Shown here: piece by piece, positions 2,474 to 52,717 of the stretch
How positions within the stretch are numbered: the stretch's first letter is position 1
How the letters are laid out: each line of letters begins with the position of its first letter
NCBI GenBank assembly: GCA_902537445.1
Contig: CACBBI010000005.1
Span: 1-62,916, forward strand
Direction: 5' to 3'
DNA: 62,916 nt
Source: an uncultured Prochlorococcus sp.
Lineage (GTDB): Bacteria > Cyanobacteriota > Cyanobacteriia > PCC-6307 > Cyanobiaceae
The notes under the pieces: model-generated
What the model was told of the DNA's origin: nothing
Databases searched by the model: none
What the model saw: only the letters and a program-made list of their open reading frames with translations
Position numbers and translations under genes: made by a program

Positions 2474-2701
2474 ATGCTTTTACTCTCTGTACCATTCTAC
2501 GATTTTCCATCTTCGCCCATACTAATAATTGGTGCCATAGGCATTGTTGTAGCACTGGCTGTTTTTTTTCTAGCTTACAAAGAGTACTTCAATTCTCCAT
2601 TTAACAAAGAATTTCAATTAAAGAAAAAAGCTCTATTGAAGGAGAAAAAAGAACTAAACATAAAACTTGAAAAAATAGAGCAAGATTTAAAAAATTTATA
2701 G
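2474..2701 (+). CDS. membrane protein with C-terminal coiled coil, 75 aa
   Basis: It starts directly after the hli stop codon. It has one long transmembrane segment (about residues 15-35) and then a charged, lysine/glutamate-rich region (KKKALLKEKKELNIKLEKIE) that should form a coiled coil. It probably belongs to the hli operon. It has no counterpart at the same place in the second hli cluster. Function unknown. Confidence 0.65.
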   Translation: MLLLSVPFYDFPSSPILIIGAIGIVVALAVFFLAYKEYFNSPFNKEFQLKKKALLKEKKELNIKLEKIEQDLKNL

Positions 2702-2709
2702 TTAAATCC

Positions 2710-2811
2710 ATGAACATAGACATTTTTCTAATCTCTTTCTTTACTTATCTCTTAGTACCAGTAGTAATGATCGCTAAGGGTAAAAAAGCAACTAACATAA
2801 AAAAGATTTAG
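2710..2811 (+). CDS. small single-helix membrane protein, 33 aa
   Basis: It consists of one hydrophobic segment (IFLISFFTYLLVPVVMIA) and a basic tail, which fits the size class of photosynthetic small subunits and hli-linked peptides. It starts 9 bp after the previous stop, so it is likely in the same operon. No specific family is recognised. Confidence 0.5.
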   Translation: MNIDIFLISFFTYLLVPVVMIAKGKKATNIKKI

Positions 2812-2896
2812 GCTCCCAAAAATAAGATTTTAAACTCTATTCAATACTTACATAGTCGTTATGGAGTTTTCTTATAAGTTTAAGGAGGGTAATCTT

Positions 2897-3070
2897 ATGA
2901 CCAACCTCGCTATTGAGATACTTATCTGAACTATAGTTTTAGTAAATTTTGGAGCAATCCTTACAGCTAATATCTACTCAAAATCAGTAAAGGAATTTAA
3001 ACGAAATAGATTTTTTTGCAGTAAGTCTTTCAGCAATATTTATTGCATTATTTGATAAAAATTTGTTTTG
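2897..3070 (+). pseudogene. decayed small membrane protein gene
   Basis: A good Shine-Dalgarno (AGGAGG at 2883-2888) precedes ATG at 2897. Ten codons later there is an in-frame TGA (2927-2929). After it the same frame continues as a hydrophobic segment (TIVLVNFGAILTANIYSKS). Near the T-run at about 3010 the sense reading shifts by one base (FFAVSLSAIFIALFDK) and runs into the second tRNA-Pro fragment. One stop plus one frameshift argues for a pseudogene. Confidence 0.5.
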
Positions 3071-3072
3071 TA

Positions 3073-3111
3073 AAGCACTAGTTTGCAGGTTCGAATGCTA
3101 TCGCCCCGACT
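3073..3111 (+). repeat. tRNA-Pro 3' fragment, copy 2 (degenerate)
   Basis: The fragment reads AGCACTAGTTTGCAGGTTCG then AATGCTATCGCCCCGACT. It aligns with the T arm and acceptor strand of copies 1 and 3 but has several mismatches and has lost the anticodon loop. It closes the 1.0-3.1 kb segment carrying hli genes. Confidence 0.75.
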
Positions 3112-3197
3112 CTAATAATCCAGATCAAAGAACGGTTCCCCAGTCTGTATTTTTTAAAGACTAAATTCTGTCCTAAAAGATTGCGGACAAAAGATGC

Positions 3198-3611
3198 TTA
3201 ATTGAAAGGTGAAGTGTTATTAGTAGGAGCTATTAGTAGGATTTCAAAAACTATCCCGGTTAAGGCAATTGGTAAAACCCAAATCCCAATAAATCTATGA
3301 TCAAAAAATCTTAAATGATCTTCACCCCTGAAAACACTTTGCAAAGAAGTAAATAGGGTTTCTGGTTGCTTATATGATGGCACATTTTTAGAAGGAGAGT
3401 ATGGCTTAACAAAAGCGGAAGACGCATAAAACTTTGCAATTTTTCTTAAAAAATAAATAGGTAAAACCCATATAGCAACGAATCTTCCACCAAGCCACTG
3501 TCTCGCATTAGGTAGAGCATACTCTTTAATAGATTTATTCTCTGGCATTCCAGATTCCAAATTCTTATAAATTTTTTCTAATGTAAATTCATTACTTGAT
3601 TTATTGATCAT
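3198..3611 (-). CDS. membrane protein with internal duplication, 137 aa
   Basis: Two similar segments, GGRFVAIWVLPIYFL (about residues 41-55) and DHRFIGIWVLPIALTGI (about 104-120), share the core RF-x-x-IWVLPI, so the protein looks like a tandem duplication of a one-helix unit joined by a polar linker. I do not recognise the family. It lies 41 bp downstream of the end of two structured RNA-like elements on the same strand, which might control it. A thylakoid location is a guess from the neighbours. Confidence 0.6.
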   Translation of the reverse strand: MINKSSNEFTLEKIYKNLESGMPENKSIKEYALPNARQWLGGRFVAIWVLPIYFLRKIAKFYASSAFVKPYSPSKNVPSYKQPETLFTSLQSVFRGEDHLRFFDHRFIGIWVLPIALTGIVFEILLIAPTNNTSPFN

Positions 3612-3652
3612 TTGATTTCCAGAAAAATTTACTTTAAAAGGTGAAATAAATA

Positions 3653-3775
3653 AAAATATTCCTAACTACTAAAATAACTAAAAAGAAGCTAGGAATATTT
3701 TCGTTGGCTAGGTTCATAAAGACGGAATCTATACCGTTGCAGATTCGCCAAATATCTACATATTCTTTATAAGTA
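3653..3775 (-). ncRNA. structured RNA-like element A ending in a terminator
   Basis: Read on the minus strand it begins GTAGATATTTGGCGAATCTG, which can fold (GTAGAT with ATCTGC). A second hairpin ACGG-TATAGATT-CCGT follows. The element ends in a 12-bp stem (3690-3701 with 3653-3664) followed by T-rich sequence. Element B at 3893-4008 has the same order and the same opening but different stem sequences. It could be a small RNA or a leader of the 137-aa gene. Confidence 0.45.
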
Positions 3776-3892
3776 AAAAACTCTTTTTTAAAAAGTAAAT
3801 AATATACAGAAGAAGGAATAATATTTAATAATTTAGAGTTTTTGTTAAGAATTTAATTTAATATTTATGATTATTTAAAAAAAATATTTAAA

Positions 3893-4008
3893 CCTCATTT
3901 TCTAAGATTGCGAAAAAGAAAATGAGGTCAAAGGGAGGTTCTCATTACGAACCGCTTTATCAAAGCTAGCGGCTAAGTAGATTGCCCTAATATCTACTTA
4001 TATATTTA
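3893..4008 (-). ncRNA. structured RNA-like element B ending in a terminator
   Basis: On the minus strand: AAGTAGAT-ATTAGGGCA-ATCTACTT (perfect 8-bp hairpin), then CCGCT...AGCGG, then GGTTC...GAACC, then a 10-bp stem CCTCATTTTC / GAAAATGAGG (3918-3927 with 3893-3902) followed by a T-rich tract. Its opening matches element A, with pairing kept where the sequence differs. No protein is encoded here. Confidence 0.5.
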
Positions 4009-4080
4009 TATAATGAGTTTTAAAATACAGGAAGATTAATTTTATACAAATAAGTGTTTAATATTTAATGTAATTATTGC

Positions 4081-4179
4081 TTAGGAAAAGCTAATTAATG
4101 TACTTACTATAGTTATTGAAAGATAAAAAAATGCATAAAGAGAAACGGCTAAAAACAAATACTGTTCTATTGGAATCAT
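4081..4179 (-). CDS. small single-helix membrane protein, 32 aa
   Basis: The ORF starts MIPIEQYLFLAVSLY and is almost wholly hydrophobic. It is the third gene of a minus-strand set after the PsbF-like 98-aa and the 62-aa proteins (gap 34 bp). Its size and hydrophobicity resemble small photosystem subunits, but no family is recognised. Confidence 0.5.
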   Translation of the reverse strand: MIPIEQYLFLAVSLYAFFYLSITIVSTLISFS

Positions 4180-4213
4180 AAAAGGTATTAATTTAAGGAT
4201 AAGAAAAATTTGA

Positions 4214-4402
4214 TTAATTTTTTGTTAAAAAGATATTCTCTAAAATATAACTTTGTTCTATTGATTCATTTTTAAGAGAATTGTTTTTTGGCAAATTGTT
4301 ATTCGTAGAATTAAAAGCACCCCATTTTTTTAGCCAAAATAAGGTATAAAAAAATGCGATTAAAAATGGTGCTCCAACAATTAAAAATCTAATGTCCATC
4401 AA
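4214..4402 (-). CDS. small membrane protein related to the N-terminus of its neighbour, 62 aa
   Basis: It starts MMDIRFLIVGAPFLIAFF. This aligns with the start of the 98-aa protein upstream ([18 protein letters not shown]), including FWL-x-x-W after the helix, so the two N-terminal helices are paralogous. The rest is a polar, asparagine-rich tail with no PsbF-like part. It is separated by 8 bp from the upstream gene and so is probably co-transcribed. A PsbY-like helix is a weak alternative label. Confidence 0.55.
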   Translation of the reverse strand: MMDIRFLIVGAPFLIAFFYTLFWLKKWGAFNSTNNNLPKNNSLKNESIEQSYILENIFLTKN

Positions 4403-4410
4403 AATTCCTA

Positions 4411-4707
4411 TTAATAAGATTTAAACTGCATTGCCAATATTGCTCCAAGGAAGAAAACGGTTGGGATCCCTAGGGCATTAACTGCTGCGGTTCTTACAGT
4501 AAATACTGGATAACCTTCTGCTGGTCTGCCAGTATCAGGAATTAATGCTGAATCTTCCCATACTTGATAATTTTTAAAAGGAGCTACTCCCTTCTTTGGT
4601 AATCCTAGTGGTGTTAATCTAAATACATCCCACCTACCTAACCAAAAGACTGTAAATATCCATGAGAATATTATTGGTGTAATAACGAGTAAAATCCTGA
4701 AATCCAT
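4411..4707 (-). CDS. two-helix membrane protein with a PsbF-like C-terminus lacking the haem histidine, 98 aa
   Basis: Residues 66-95 read YPVFTVR, then [16 protein letters not shown] and AMQF, which match the cytochrome b559 beta subunit PsbF (YPIFTVR, AVHALAIP, VFFLG, AMQF). In PsbF the histidine of AVHAL is the axial haem ligand; here that position is Asn77, so b559-type haem ligation should be impossible. An extra N-terminal helix (residues 1-25) and a 40-residue linker precede it. First gene of a three-gene run of tiny membrane proteins. Likely a thylakoid protein of unknown role, derived from or mimicking PsbF. Confidence 0.65.
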
Positions 4708-4928
4708 TTCTAAAAGGTAATAATAAATTTGATTATTATTTTGTCTTTTTTAGTTAAATAAATGATTTGATCATTAACTTATATTTAAAGAAAAACCCCT
4801 AATAACATTGTTTCTAATCATTAGTAACATCATGAAATGATTAATTGATTTATTTAAAGTATATTTTTTTGGATTGCGATATGTTGGATATTTTTTTGAT
4901 GTAGATTTTGGTTAATTAAAAAACAAAT

Positions 4929-5297
4929 ATGGAAACCTTTAGATTCTTACTTTTTGGTTTTGCAGGAGTTAGTGTAGTTTTTTGGGTGGCAATAATAGCT
5001 TTATGGCATACATACATGTTTCCAAGATTCTTTAATGAAGATAAAGGATTAAATTCTGTTATCAATCAAGAAATAAAAGTTTCTACAGATCCAATTTTAG
5101 GCAGTTTGGTTAAAAGCAATAATTTCAGAAATAGAGATAAATATTCAATGAAAAATTTGGTTATTGCTGACTTTTCATCTGCAAGTAATAATTTCAAACT
5201 TAATAAACTCTATACAACAGTAATGATTGGTGTTACTTTTGCAAGTTTTATTTTTCTTACTTATGGATTAAGCAGTTCAATAACAACGGTAAGTTAA
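4929..5297 (+). CDS. two-helix membrane protein, 122 aa
   Basis: Transmembrane segments lie at about residues 5-30 (FLLFGFAGVSVVFWVAIIAL) and 95-118, with a polar asparagine/lysine-rich loop between. It is divergent from the PsbF-like operon. Its stop is followed immediately by a second small ORF (5298). No family recognised; it is specific to this accessory region as far as I can tell. Confidence 0.6.
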   Translation: METFRFLLFGFAGVSVVFWVAIIALWHTYMFPRFFNEDKGLNSVINQEIKVSTDPILGSLVKSNNFRNRDKYSMKNLVIADFSSASNNFKLNKLYTTVMIGVTFASFIFLTYGLSSSITTVS

Positions 5298-6554: not shown

Positions 6555-6652
6555 ATCAGTTTATTTGATATTCTTTTGATATAAATGAAATGAGGCCAAA
6601 CCTCATCAGCACACTATATATTTGCTGCAAGACATAAATTGATTCTATATAG

Positions 6653-6671
6653 TTGAGAGTCGATTTAATAA
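6653..6671 (+). promoter_or_regulatory. recurrent promoter-like motif, plus-strand site
   Basis: TTGAGAGTCGATTTAATAA differs at three positions from TTGACAGTCGATCTAAAATAA after allowing a 2-base shorter end. It faces the 74-aa gene at 6938, but about 270 bp away, so its target is unclear. Confidence 0.35.
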
Positions 6672-6708
6672 CCCTTTCAGTAGTTGGAATTTCTGGAGAG
6701 ATTTCTTG

Positions 6709-18612: not shown

Positions 18613-18800
18613 GATCTTGTGCAGTTAATGAGAATCCCGTTCCCTATTCCCATTTCATGCGTCCAGAGATATAAACTTGGATGAACGTTAATGAACAATA
18701 ACACCTCCTAAAAAATAACGCGAGAGTAATTTTTACTAATTATTTTCTCAATAATAAAGAATTTATAAATTAGGAAAATAATATTTTGGTATTGAGTTCA

Positions 18801-28350: not shown

Positions 28351-28361
28351 ATGAGAAAAAA

Positions 28362-28400
28362 TAAAAAAAAGAGATTGTTTCTTAGCTAAAAACAATCTCT
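28362..28400 (-). terminator. Rho-independent terminator, minus strand
   Basis: Stem AGAGATTGTTT / AAACAATCTCT followed on the minus strand by a long T-run. It serves the 71-aa gene at 28494-28709. Confidence 0.75.
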
Positions 28401-28493
28401 CAATTACCTAATTCTTACATGAAAATTTCAAGTAAGCTCACAGATTTTAACTGATTTATTTTTATAGTAAATACGCAACAATACTTTTGTTAT

Positions 28494-50274: not shown

Positions 50275-51351
50275 ATGACGATCGCAGTTGGTAGCGCCCC
50301 ACAAAGAGGATGGTTTGATGTCCTTGATGATTGGTTGAAGCGCGACCGCTTTGTATTTATTGGTTGGTCCGGACTACTTCTACTTCCTTGTGCATATCTT
50401 GCTATAGGTGGTTGGTTCGTCGGAACAACATTTGTTACCTCTTGGTACACACACGGAGTTGCAAGCTCATACCTCGAAGGTTGTAACTTTTTAACAGCAG
50501 CTGTAAGCACCCCTGGTGATGCCATGGGACACAGTCTTCTATTTTTATGGGGTCCTGAAGCCCAAGGTAGTTTCGTACGATGGCTACAACTTGGTGGTCT
50601 TTGGAACTTCGTTGCATTACATGGAGTATTTGGCCTAATTGGTTTTATGCTTCGTCAGTTTGAAATTGCTGGCCTTGTTGGAATTAGACCATACAACGCA
50701 TTAGCTTTCTCAGCAGTAATCGCAGTTTTTACAAGTATTTTCCTTATTTATCCTTTAGGACAGCATAGTTGGTTCTTCGCACCTTCATTTGGTGTTGCAG
50801 CAATCTTCCGTTATATCCTGTTCATTCAAGGCTTTCACAATATCACTTTAAATCCATTCCACATGATGGGAGTTGCTGGAATTCTTGGTGGTGCTCTACT
50901 TTGCGCTATTCATGGAGCTACAGTACAAAATACTTTGTATGAAGATACAAGTATCTATACAGATGGTAAGGTACAAAGTTCAACATTTAGAGCTTTTGAC
51001 CCAACTCAAGAAGAAGAAACTTATTCAATGATTACAGCGAATAGATTCTGGAGTCAAATCTTTGGTATTGCTTTCTCAAACAAGCGTTTCTTACACTTTT
51101 TGATGCTTTTTGTACCTGTTATGGGTATGTGGACATCTTCAATTGGTATTGTCGGCCTAGCACTAAACTTAAGAGCTTATGATTTCGTAAGCCAAGAAAT
51201 TCGTGCAGCAGAAGATCCAGAATTTGAAACTTTCTATACAAAAAATATACTTTTGAACGAAGGTATGCGAGCATGGATGTCTTCTGTGGATCAACCACAC
51301 GAAAACTTTGTATTCCCTGAGGAGGTTCTTCCACGTGGAAACGCCCTTTAA
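50275..51351 (+). CDS. psbD: photosystem II reaction centre protein D2, 358 aa
   Basis: Five-helix D2 with [40 protein letters not shown] and [20 protein letters not shown], including the chlorophyll and non-haem iron histidines. It forms the PSII core with D1 and binds QA. Possible HLR1-like boxes (CTTTACA at about 50178) lie about 95 bp upstream. The 3' end overlaps psbC by 17 bp, the classic arrangement. Confidence 0.97.
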
Positions 51352-52717
51352 TAATCTATTAAGAGCTCCAAACCAAAGTATTGAGGAAACTGGTTATGCC
51401 TGGTATGTAGGCAACGCTAGATTAATCAATTTATCTGGACGTTTATTAGGAGCTCACATTGCTCACTCTGGACTAATAGTCTTTTGGGCGGGAGCAATGA
51501 TGCTCTTTGAGGTTAATCATTTTACTTTTGATAAACCAATGTGGGAGCAAGGTTTAATCTGTATGCCACACGTTGCAATGTTTGGTTATGGAATAGGCCC
51601 AGGTGGTGAAGTTACTGATATCATGCCTTTCTTTCAAGCAGGTGTGGTGCACTTAATAGCTTCCGCTGTTCTTGGTTTTGGTGGTATTTACCATTCATTA
51701 GCAGGTCCAGAGAAGCTTGAAGAAGACTTTCCATTTTTCTCCACTGATTGGAGAGATAAAAATCAAATGACAAATATCCTTGGATATCATTTGATTGTTT
51801 TAGGTGTAGGTGCATTAGCATGGTCTGTAAACTGGTGTTTTATTGGCGGTGCATATGACACATGGGCACCTGGTGGTGGTGAAGTCAGACTTGTAAATCC
51901 AACTTTAGATCCAAGAGTTATTCTTGGTTATCTATTCAGATCTCCATGGGGAGGAGCTGGTTCAATAATCGGTGTTAACTCTATTGAAGATATTGTTGGT
52001 GGACATGTTTATGTGGGTATTACTGCAATTATCGGAGGAATATTCCATATCTTTACTAAACCTTTTGGTTGGGCAAGAAGGGCATTCATCTGGAATGGTG
52101 AAGGATTATTAAGTTATGCTCTTGGTGGAATTTGTGTAGCAAGTTTCATTGCTTCAACATTCATCTGGTTTAACAACACTGCTTACCCTTCAGAATTTTA
52201 TGGTCCAACTAATGCTGAAGCTTCACAGGCTCAAAGCTTTACTTTCCTAGTGAGAGATCAAAGAATTGGAGCTAACGTAGGTTCAACAATGGGACCAACA
52301 GGTCTAGGTAAGTATCTCATGAGATCTCCTACTGGTGAAATTATATTTGGTGGTGAAACAATGAGATTTTGGGATTTCAGAGGCCCATGGTTAGAGCCCT
52401 TAAGAGGACCTAACGGATTGAGCCTTGAGAAAATCCAGAATGATATTCAGCCTTGGCAGGTCAGAAGAGCTGCTGAATATATGACTCACGCTCCTAACGC
52501 TTCTATCAACTCTGTTGGTGGAATCATTACAGAGCCTAATGCTGTTAACTTCGTTAACTTAAGACAGTGGTTAGCCGCAGCTCAATTCTTCCTAGGATGG
52601 TTTACATTCATCGGTCACCTTTGGCATGCTGGACGTGCTAGAGCAGCCGCTGCTGGTTTCGAAAAAGGAATCGACAGAAAGAGTGAACCAGCTCTAGAAA
52701 TGCCTGATTTAGATTAA
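51335..52717 (+). CDS. psbC: photosystem II CP43 antenna protein, 460 aa
   Basis: Six-helix chlorophyll antenna: [20 protein letters not shown] start, [20 protein letters not shown], a large luminal loop with [20 protein letters not shown] holding the Mn-cluster ligands, and the [18 protein letters not shown] end. Start is GTG at 51335, with Shine-Dalgarno GAGGAGG at 51319 inside psbD; a longer frame from 51308 is not used. Co-transcribed with psbD, ending at the hairpin at 52733. Confidence 0.96.

Follow-up and report, generated by a model that had tools for sequence, protein, structure and literature searches.

On the minus strand of the window (the whole 62,916-nucleotide stretch of DNA analyzed here), two RNA-like units lie between a 32-aa ORF, which ends near 4080, and a 137-aa gene, p137. 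Comparison across genomes suggests that these units, B upstream and A downstream (∼3650–4000), joined in some lineages by a third, C, are probably tandem, separately transcribed sibling small RNAs (sRNAs) of one new family.

Layout of the Locus

In both units a 5′ hairpin (P1) is followed by another hairpin (P2), then by a linker containing AACCU, and finally by a long terminator stem and U-rich sequence. The preliminary description had reported two related RNA-like elements, each ending in a terminator hairpin, and this holds, as the P1, P2, and terminator stems are all present in both. The common minus-strand start that it gave, GTAGATATT-N-GG, is likewise found in both elements, whose shared first letters are GUAGAUAUU-N-GG. 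It missed the pairing of the P1 loop with the tail, a pseudoknot with compensatory changes that are strongest in A; the promoter-like sequence that each element has of its own; the third tandem paralogue, C, in some divergent genomes; and the tie between the B–A pair and the downstream p137. The conserved sequence also exceeds the span originally given, with the promoter-like part of B reaching ∼4050. None of the listed ORFs of at least 40 aa overlaps A or B. The features, in window coordinates, are as follows.

4032–4049, minus: putative upstream promoter element of B, TTGTATAAAATTAATCTT (TGTA at −51 in 84 of 87 unique upstream sequences)
4005–4010, minus: −10-like box of B, TATAAA (TAT[AG][AT]A within −18 to −6 in 114 of 115 unique B)
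3877–3999, minus: element B, a predicted sRNA of ∼120 nt (folding, covariation, genome distribution, conservation)
About 3975–3999, minus: B P1 hairpin, GUAGAU/AUCUAC (94.7% of cells paired in 19 sequences; five of six pairs invariant)
3985–3988, minus: 5′ strand of the B pseudoknot, AGGG, in the P1 loop (100% of lettered cells pair with the tail)
3951–3973, minus: B P2 hairpin, CCGC/GCGG, with conserved loop UAGCUUUGAUAA (double changes at three of five pairs)
3932–3950, minus: conserved B linker with AACCUC, and the pseudoknot 3′ strand CCCU at 3932–3935 (AACCUC in 78 of 80 model-placed B)
3892–3928, minus: B terminator stem, the U-rich tract running onward to ∼3877 (mean pairwise identity 0.981, 92 sequences)
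3792–3810, minus: putative upstream promoter element of A, TCTGTATATTATTTACTTT (TGTA at −49 in 84 of 85 unique upstream sequences)
3766–3771, minus: −10-like box of A, TATAAA (found in 113 of 114 unique A and, among model-placed A of the named loci, in 79 of 80)
3648–3761, minus: element A, a predicted sRNA of ∼110 nt (folding, covariation, synteny, conservation)
3739–3759, minus: A P1 hairpin, GUAGAU/AUCUGC (100% of cells paired in 16 sequences)
3747–3752, minus: 5′ strand of the A pseudoknot, UUUGGC (pairs with GCCAA; paired variants in relatives)
3722–3737, minus: A P2 hairpin, ACGG/CCGU (G-C to C-G swap in 5 of 16 sequences)
3704–3721, minus: conserved A linker, CUUUAUGAACCUA, and the pseudoknot 3′ strand GCCAA at 3704–3708 (AACCU in 78 of 80 model-placed A)
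3652–3702, minus: A terminator hairpin (mean pairwise identity 0.946, 92 sequences)
3198–3611, minus: p137, the 137-aa gene downstream of A (two hydrophobic segments by eye)

A third copy of GTAGATATTAG at ∼2977 was rejected as a member, as neither covariance model matches it at E ≤ 5 and its fold is ordinary (z 0.06). Also on the minus strand, at ∼3075–3120, a tRNA-like 3′ fragment (GGGGCGA...TTCGAACCTGC) was recognized by eye and is perhaps an island attachment scar.

Conserved Fold and Predicted Pseudoknot

Both elements fold better than their dinucleotide shuffles: B has z = −3.47, which none of 200 shuffles equals, and A has z = −3.02, which 1 of 200 does. A covariance model of B finds A as its second-best match in the window (14.2 bits, E 0.34), and a model of A finds B in the same way (14.7 bits, E 0.045); these E values are weak when taken alone. 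For the comparison across genomes, 16 A and 19 B/C elements were aligned and turned into covariance models R1 (A) and R2 (B/C), six elements without a clean start or end (four A, two B) having been excluded and the remainder thinned to 17 A and 19 B/C. A pattern demanding the P1 letters plus AACC or GAATATCCC was used to collect the 236 unique elements, so that counts of those letters among them carry no weight as evidence; the training elements of R1 and R2 share this circularity. Counts for the linker and for P1 are therefore taken from 160 model-placed elements in 80 named loci.

The preliminary description had read compensatory differences between the two copies as a sign of selected structure. 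The sign is there across genomes, as the covariation in the alignments attests, but not between the two copies, whose P2 stems cannot be aligned pair by pair. Double changes occur at three P2 pairs in the B/C alignment, and sliding the partners by 1 to 3 columns lowers the paired cells from ∼95% to 28–52%. The loop–tail helix varies in a similarly compensated manner. In A, the loop strand UUUGGC pairs with GCCAA(A) of the tail, and relatives carry UUCGGC/GUCGAA, UUCGGC/GCCGAA, UUGGGC/GCCCGA, and UUGGGCA/UGCCCAA, that is, changes of U-A to C-G and of U-A to G-C. In B, AGGG of the loop and CCCU of the tail are paired in all two-sided cells of the 19 sequences (7 rows are gapped at one pair), one pair being GC in 15, GU in 2, and AU in 2, and divergent B elements have UGGG/CCCA. 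MAFFT misplaced 5 of the 16 A rows by one pseudoknot column, which scored them as unpaired at one pair, and these were re-read in register by a script.

Loops were also scored against tails. The A loop scores 14.0 against its own tail, versus 8.98 against shuffled tails (the largest of 300 shuffle means being 9.94), 7.2 against B tails, and 6.8 against C tails. The B loop scores 12.0 against its own tail, versus 9.69 for shuffled tails (largest shuffle mean 10.68), a small margin, and 10.5 for C tails, with a register that is partly ambiguous. The seven C elements do not score above chance (10.33 vs 9.12, largest 12.17). Support for the loop–tail pairing is strong in A and fair in B. With unconstrained RNAfold, the best structure of A, B, and C of one divergent locus (L083) has the loop–tail helix in place of P1, and P1 without the loop–tail helix is returned for the C element of L113 and for A and B of the window. 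The comparison therefore backs both helices, not their coexistence, and P1 and the loop–tail helix may be alternative folds.

A generic terminator scan found none at the A/B region, probably because it allowed loops of 3–8 nt only and those of A and B are longer.

Conservation and Coding Potential

Across 92 unique sequences, the mean pairwise identity is 0.898 for the B core, 0.981 for the B terminator, 0.666 for the B–A spacer, 0.903 for the A promoter, 0.918 for the A core, 0.946 for the A terminator, and 0.429 for the A–p137 spacer. This profile leaves aside ten loci that are divergent or hold extra DNA (L080, L081, L083–L086, L088, L112–L114), as well as loci having <520 nt upstream. One might suppose plain intergenic DNA that holds two terminators and promoters and is conserved only through its youth, and the terminators are indeed the most conserved parts. 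We give this explanation next to no weight, since the spacers and the third codon positions of p137 (0.881, 0.920, and 0.655 for positions 1, 2, and 3) diverge far more, and the compensatory changes in P2 and in the loop–tail helix contradict it.

Short leader-peptide genes are another way to account for conserved stretches: MRTSL* in B, MRISL* in C, and a hydrophobic frame of ∼25–30 aa through the A terminator. The B frame, AUG-AGA-ACC-UCN-CUU-stop, is found in 101 of 115 unique B elements, MRISL* occurs in three of seven C, and the ATG in 97 of 114 A. Even so, 7 of the 115 B and 17 of the 114 A lack a start, the C-termini in A diverge past the hairpin, no Shine–Dalgarno sequence was seen by eye, and the pseudoknot accounts for the synonymous C/U change in B. 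Within the A frame, codon positions 1, 2, and 3 have identities of 0.943, 0.925, and 0.959 (43 of 46 frames, in-phase), so that the third position is the most conserved. For want of coding selection by codon positions and of the ATG in those 17 elements, the coding frame in A was dismissed; the five-codon frame of B is dismissed less firmly, and we regard the leader-peptide explanation as a whole as very improbable.

Promoter-like Sequence

Each class of element has a TAT[AG][AT]A box just upstream of P1 (7 of 7 in C, with the counts for A and B listed above), and for A and B alike 79 of the 80 model-placed elements of the named loci carry this −10-like box. Farther upstream, TGTA recurs at a nearly fixed distance: −49 in A, −51 in B, where the three remaining sequences have it at −50 or −52, and −50 in all seven C. 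Elements of class C and seven divergent B also show TTGNNN boxes 16–18 nt before the −10. A simple sigma-70 scan returned fewer promoter-like sites than in shuffles. From the shared boxes and the TGTA spacing, A, B, and C look separately transcribed and commonly controlled. An NtcA site upstream of A was considered and dismissed: the sequence there is GTA-N7-TAC, not the N8 spacing that we take as the yardstick for the NtcA motif, and the TAC half is missing in B and C.

Distribution in the Genus

When 200 genus genomes were searched at the DNA level, the whole stretch was found at 80–96% identity in many and was split or more diverged in a few. The preliminary description had proposed a covariance-model search for further copies over Prochlorococcus genomes, and such copies are plentiful: model B (R2) has matches at E ≤ 0.01 in 130 of the 266 genus genomes, two of them matched only weakly (G070 and G073, E 0.008 and 0.010), and in 56 of the 87 with completeness of ≥90% and contamination of ≤5%. 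Among 251 genomes of the family, spanning 59 genera, R2 has 12 strong matches, all in the genus, and three weak ones outside it (E 0.026–0.034), with no convincing match outside the genus; R1 has 12 strong matches in the genus and five weak ones outside (E 0.009–0.038). The three outside B matches and four extra weak B matches inside the genus (together L104–L107 and L122–L124) were taken as chance. A second weak A match occurs in G184, and matches at E 0.02–0.93 lie away from the locus in 14 complete or near-complete genomes.

Tandem double R2 matches occur in eight genomes (G134, G077, G097, G121, G080, G204, G206, G225), and the seven elements upstream of B in these double-match lineages make up class C. 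Carriers of the pair include genomes that we take to be MIT9312, AS9601, MIT9215, and MIT9515. In the genomes taken to be MED4 (G015) and MIT9301 (G171), neither element has a match beyond chance (best E 0.82); p137 has no match in the former and is present only as a broken fragment in the latter. No phage match was found, nor any relative of p137 in viral contigs. The single match to AATGAGAACCTCYCTTTR among the viral contigs was set aside as chance; it lies on the opposite strand, inside a predicted protein gene, and neither a promoter nor a terminator was seen there.

Linkage to p137 and the Leader Alternative

One A and one B stand upstream of p137 on the same strand in all 80 named loci (the best 80 of 108), including one, L177, whose B is decayed and without P1. 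In lists compiled by hand for genomes G000–G199, with thresholds of >200 bits for p137 and E < 1e-6 for B, p137 is found in 89, B in 90, and both in 88; in the exceptions (G032, G013, G168) the missing partner would fall at or past a contig end. The p137 protein has no Pfam or NCBIfam match and has distant homologues (30–45%) in other genera. Most fetched loci have a PsbF-like gene and a p62 paralogue upstream, but the divergent lineages yielded just the RNAs and p137.

This neighborhood has variants. The B–A–p137 unit is present twice in G050 (L006, L044), ∼360 kb apart. Two genomes (G008, G198; L080, L081) hold ∼1.3 kb of extra DNA between B and A, with A still adjoining p137. At L082 (G052, about 2376–2440), the sole remnant of A is its terminator, apparently reused behind another sequence. 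In the window itself, a 98-aa long-form PsbF-like protein (NF002720, 211 bits) is encoded at 4411–4707 on the minus strand; it has Asn at the position of the His in AVHTLG of the solved PsbF, presumably the haem ligand, and the same Asn is found in several genomes of other genera. A 62-aa ORF at 4214–4402, also minus, resembles only the N-terminal part of the long PsbF, as if duplicated and trimmed.

So constant a neighbor raises the alternative that A, perhaps along with B, serves as a 5′ leader whose terminator is conditional, in which P1, P2, and the pseudoknot sense a ligand, a protein, or a ribosome and gate read-through into p137. The preliminary description had suggested tandem leaders of the 137-aa gene, and for A this may be so: it sits directly upstream of p137 in every named locus, and the spacers, commonly 32–51 nt, leave little room for another promoter (two short values, 10 and 12 nt, are artifacts of the pattern, which hit a wrong site). 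In G076 (L078), where both RNAs are decayed, the A core remains as a plain 5′ UTR after loss of its terminator, although B has lost P1 there and the locus may simply be decaying. Pseudoknotted aptamers are also known in these organisms, a glutamine-II riboswitch (RF01704) being present in the window at 18628–18690 on the minus strand. The suggestion fits B and C less well. Both have terminators and promoter-like sequence of their own, and B lies ∼230 nt upstream of A, or ∼1.3 kb in the two genomes with extra DNA. No conserved alternative pairing was seen by eye, and the possible AAUGAG/CUCAUU pairing between B and its terminator is not preserved in C. Beside 17 loci with distant p137 homologues outside the genus, neither A nor B rises above chance; with three remnant loci of the genus added, the best E values over the 20 are 0.55 for A and 0.22 for B (L218, next to p137). 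On balance we think a leader, the main rival, somewhat unlikely as the main explanation, and within the preferred reading of sibling sRNAs, A may double as the 5′ end of a read-through p137 mRNA.

Comparison with Known RNAs

Searching Rfam 15 at E ≤ 5 over window positions 2600–5000 left A and B unmatched, the only match being to the fluoride model (13.4 bits) inside p137. On four divergent loci (L083, L084, L085, L088) there was no sense-strand match on A, B, or C; a sub-threshold RefA9 match (25.5 bits, against a gathering cutoff of 49) lies on the opposite strand, where it overlaps the terminator of C in L083. Rfam does place other RNAs in the window: Yfr13 at 6592–6689 (plus), Yfr19 at 28356–28437 (minus), and IsrR at 51749–51932 (minus). 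The features generally used for bacterial intergenic sRNAs, namely, own promoter-like sequence, conserved structure, and a terminator hairpin, are all found in these elements at the level of sequence. The earlier suggestion of Yfr-like sRNAs thus stands as to form, in the covariation, promoter-like sequence, terminators, and occurrence in many genomes, but the likeness to Yfr RNAs applies only in the general sense of Prochlorococcus sRNAs.

Small size and a conserved C-rich motif are shared with Yfr1, Yfr10, and Yfr18, but the ACUCCUCACAC motif of Yfr1/Yfr10 is in 0 of the 236 unique A/B/C elements. The glutamine-II (downstream-peptide) riboswitch is likewise a small pseudoknotted RNA of the same organisms, but Rfam leaves A and B unmatched, their P1 loop–tail topology encloses P2, and they end in a terminator. 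PrrF1 and PrrF2, arranged in tandem, resemble A and B as sibling sRNAs with separate promoters; A and B are far less alike, however, and have a 5′ pseudoknot and a constant p137 neighbor. PrrF1/PrrF2 of Pseudomonas are named in the part of PMC2518516 consulted. Yfr11 and Yfr16 of MED4, ∼140–150 nt, are also a sibling sRNA pair of a high-light strain; according to the same part of that source they are 74% identical to each other, lie at distant loci, and have a reported homologue only in MIT9515 (PMC2518516). In blastn, A and B share with this pair no more than pieces of chance length (best E 0.014, over 11 nt on the opposite strand). MED4 Yfr11 and Yfr16, taken at their published coordinates, match each other at 6e-27, and model B finds nothing at E ≤ 5 on the loci that hold them (L108, L128). 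Yfr2–Yfr5, as described in the consulted part of PMC1242208, are related short RNAs of marine picocyanobacteria that occur in several copies with a 5′ hairpin; they stand at scattered loci, whereas A, B, and C are in tandem. The GGAAACA repeat of their 5′ hairpin loop is in none of the 236 unique elements. Yfr103 is set apart by its size (290–328 nt) and by its range as described in the part of PMC5069720 consulted (LL strains and Synechococcus). Among the titles found in the Prochlorococcus sRNA literature, none describes A or B (considered in part: PMC2518516, PMC7368042, PMC6778093, PMC1242208, PMC2864571, PMC6698751, and PMC5069720); an unnamed entry in a supplementary table is possible.

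Candidate Targets

In our reading, A and B would most likely act by base pairing with mRNAs. The kept AACCU of A is extended in B to AACCUC, and the B linker adds CUCC, an anti-Shine–Dalgarno string; the C linker is without AACCU. The stretch AGAACCUCC of B is perfectly complementary to GGAGGTTCT at 51321–51329, in the psbC start region (window 51308–51351), which lies inside psbD. Among the 63 ORF starts of the window, psbC is the best for the B linker (−18.2 kcal/mol), with seven other stretches of the window outscoring it. For a 12-nt P2-loop query, psbD is the best start, narrowly (−10.2 vs −10.0), and it falls outside the eight best window stretches for a longer P2-loop query. The psbC 9-mer is not enriched in four genomes (8, 20, 17, and 24 sites versus 19, 21, 20, and 25 for the reversed control); in the first of these, G000, one of the 8 sites is B itself. 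The psbC complementarity is a lead only.

Proposed Mode of Action and Implications

Taken as sibling sRNAs, A, B, and C would be transcribed as separate RNAs, each driven by its own −10-like box and a shared activator-like element near −50, and each running from the P1 hairpin through P2 and the linker to its own terminator, giving ∼110–125 nt. The P1 loop would pair with the tail before the terminator to form a compact 5′ pseudoknot, which may protect the RNA and expose or hide the AACCU(C) seed. The contacts with mRNAs would be made by the unpaired linker, AACCU(C), joined in B by the P2 loop. The A terminator may sometimes be leaky, and read-through into p137 would link the sRNAs to a membrane-protein-like product encoded near a PsbF-like gene.

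A bolder version, which we hold to be improbable, has the three paralogues as free-standing pseudoknotted sensor RNAs that share a near-invariant P1 and one regulator while each keeps its own pseudoknot and P2. The P1 GUAGA/UCUAC, retained as the remainder drifts, would be a protein- or ligand-binding face, opening of the pseudoknot would free the anti-Shine–Dalgarno seed AGAACCUCC of B, and the RNAs with p137 and the PsbF-like gene would form a photosystem II regulatory cassette of high-light Prochlorococcus.

As stated in the part of PMC2518516 consulted, Prochlorococcus has few protein regulators, and sRNAs are thought to carry much of its regulation. The sRNA surveys considered rest, in the parts consulted, largely on MED4 and a few low-light strains. 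The pair may have been overlooked because the usual laboratory strain seems to be without A and B, and its presence in about half of the genus genomes searched, with no match in the genome taken as MED4, shows how a MED4-based catalogue can leave RNAs out. The covariance models, the natural compensatory variants of the pseudoknot, and the constant neighbor gene make the proposals testable in cultured strains. For the biology of the family, the tandem arrangement of siblings with a common upstream element suggests that one signal is used by dosage or in a graded way.
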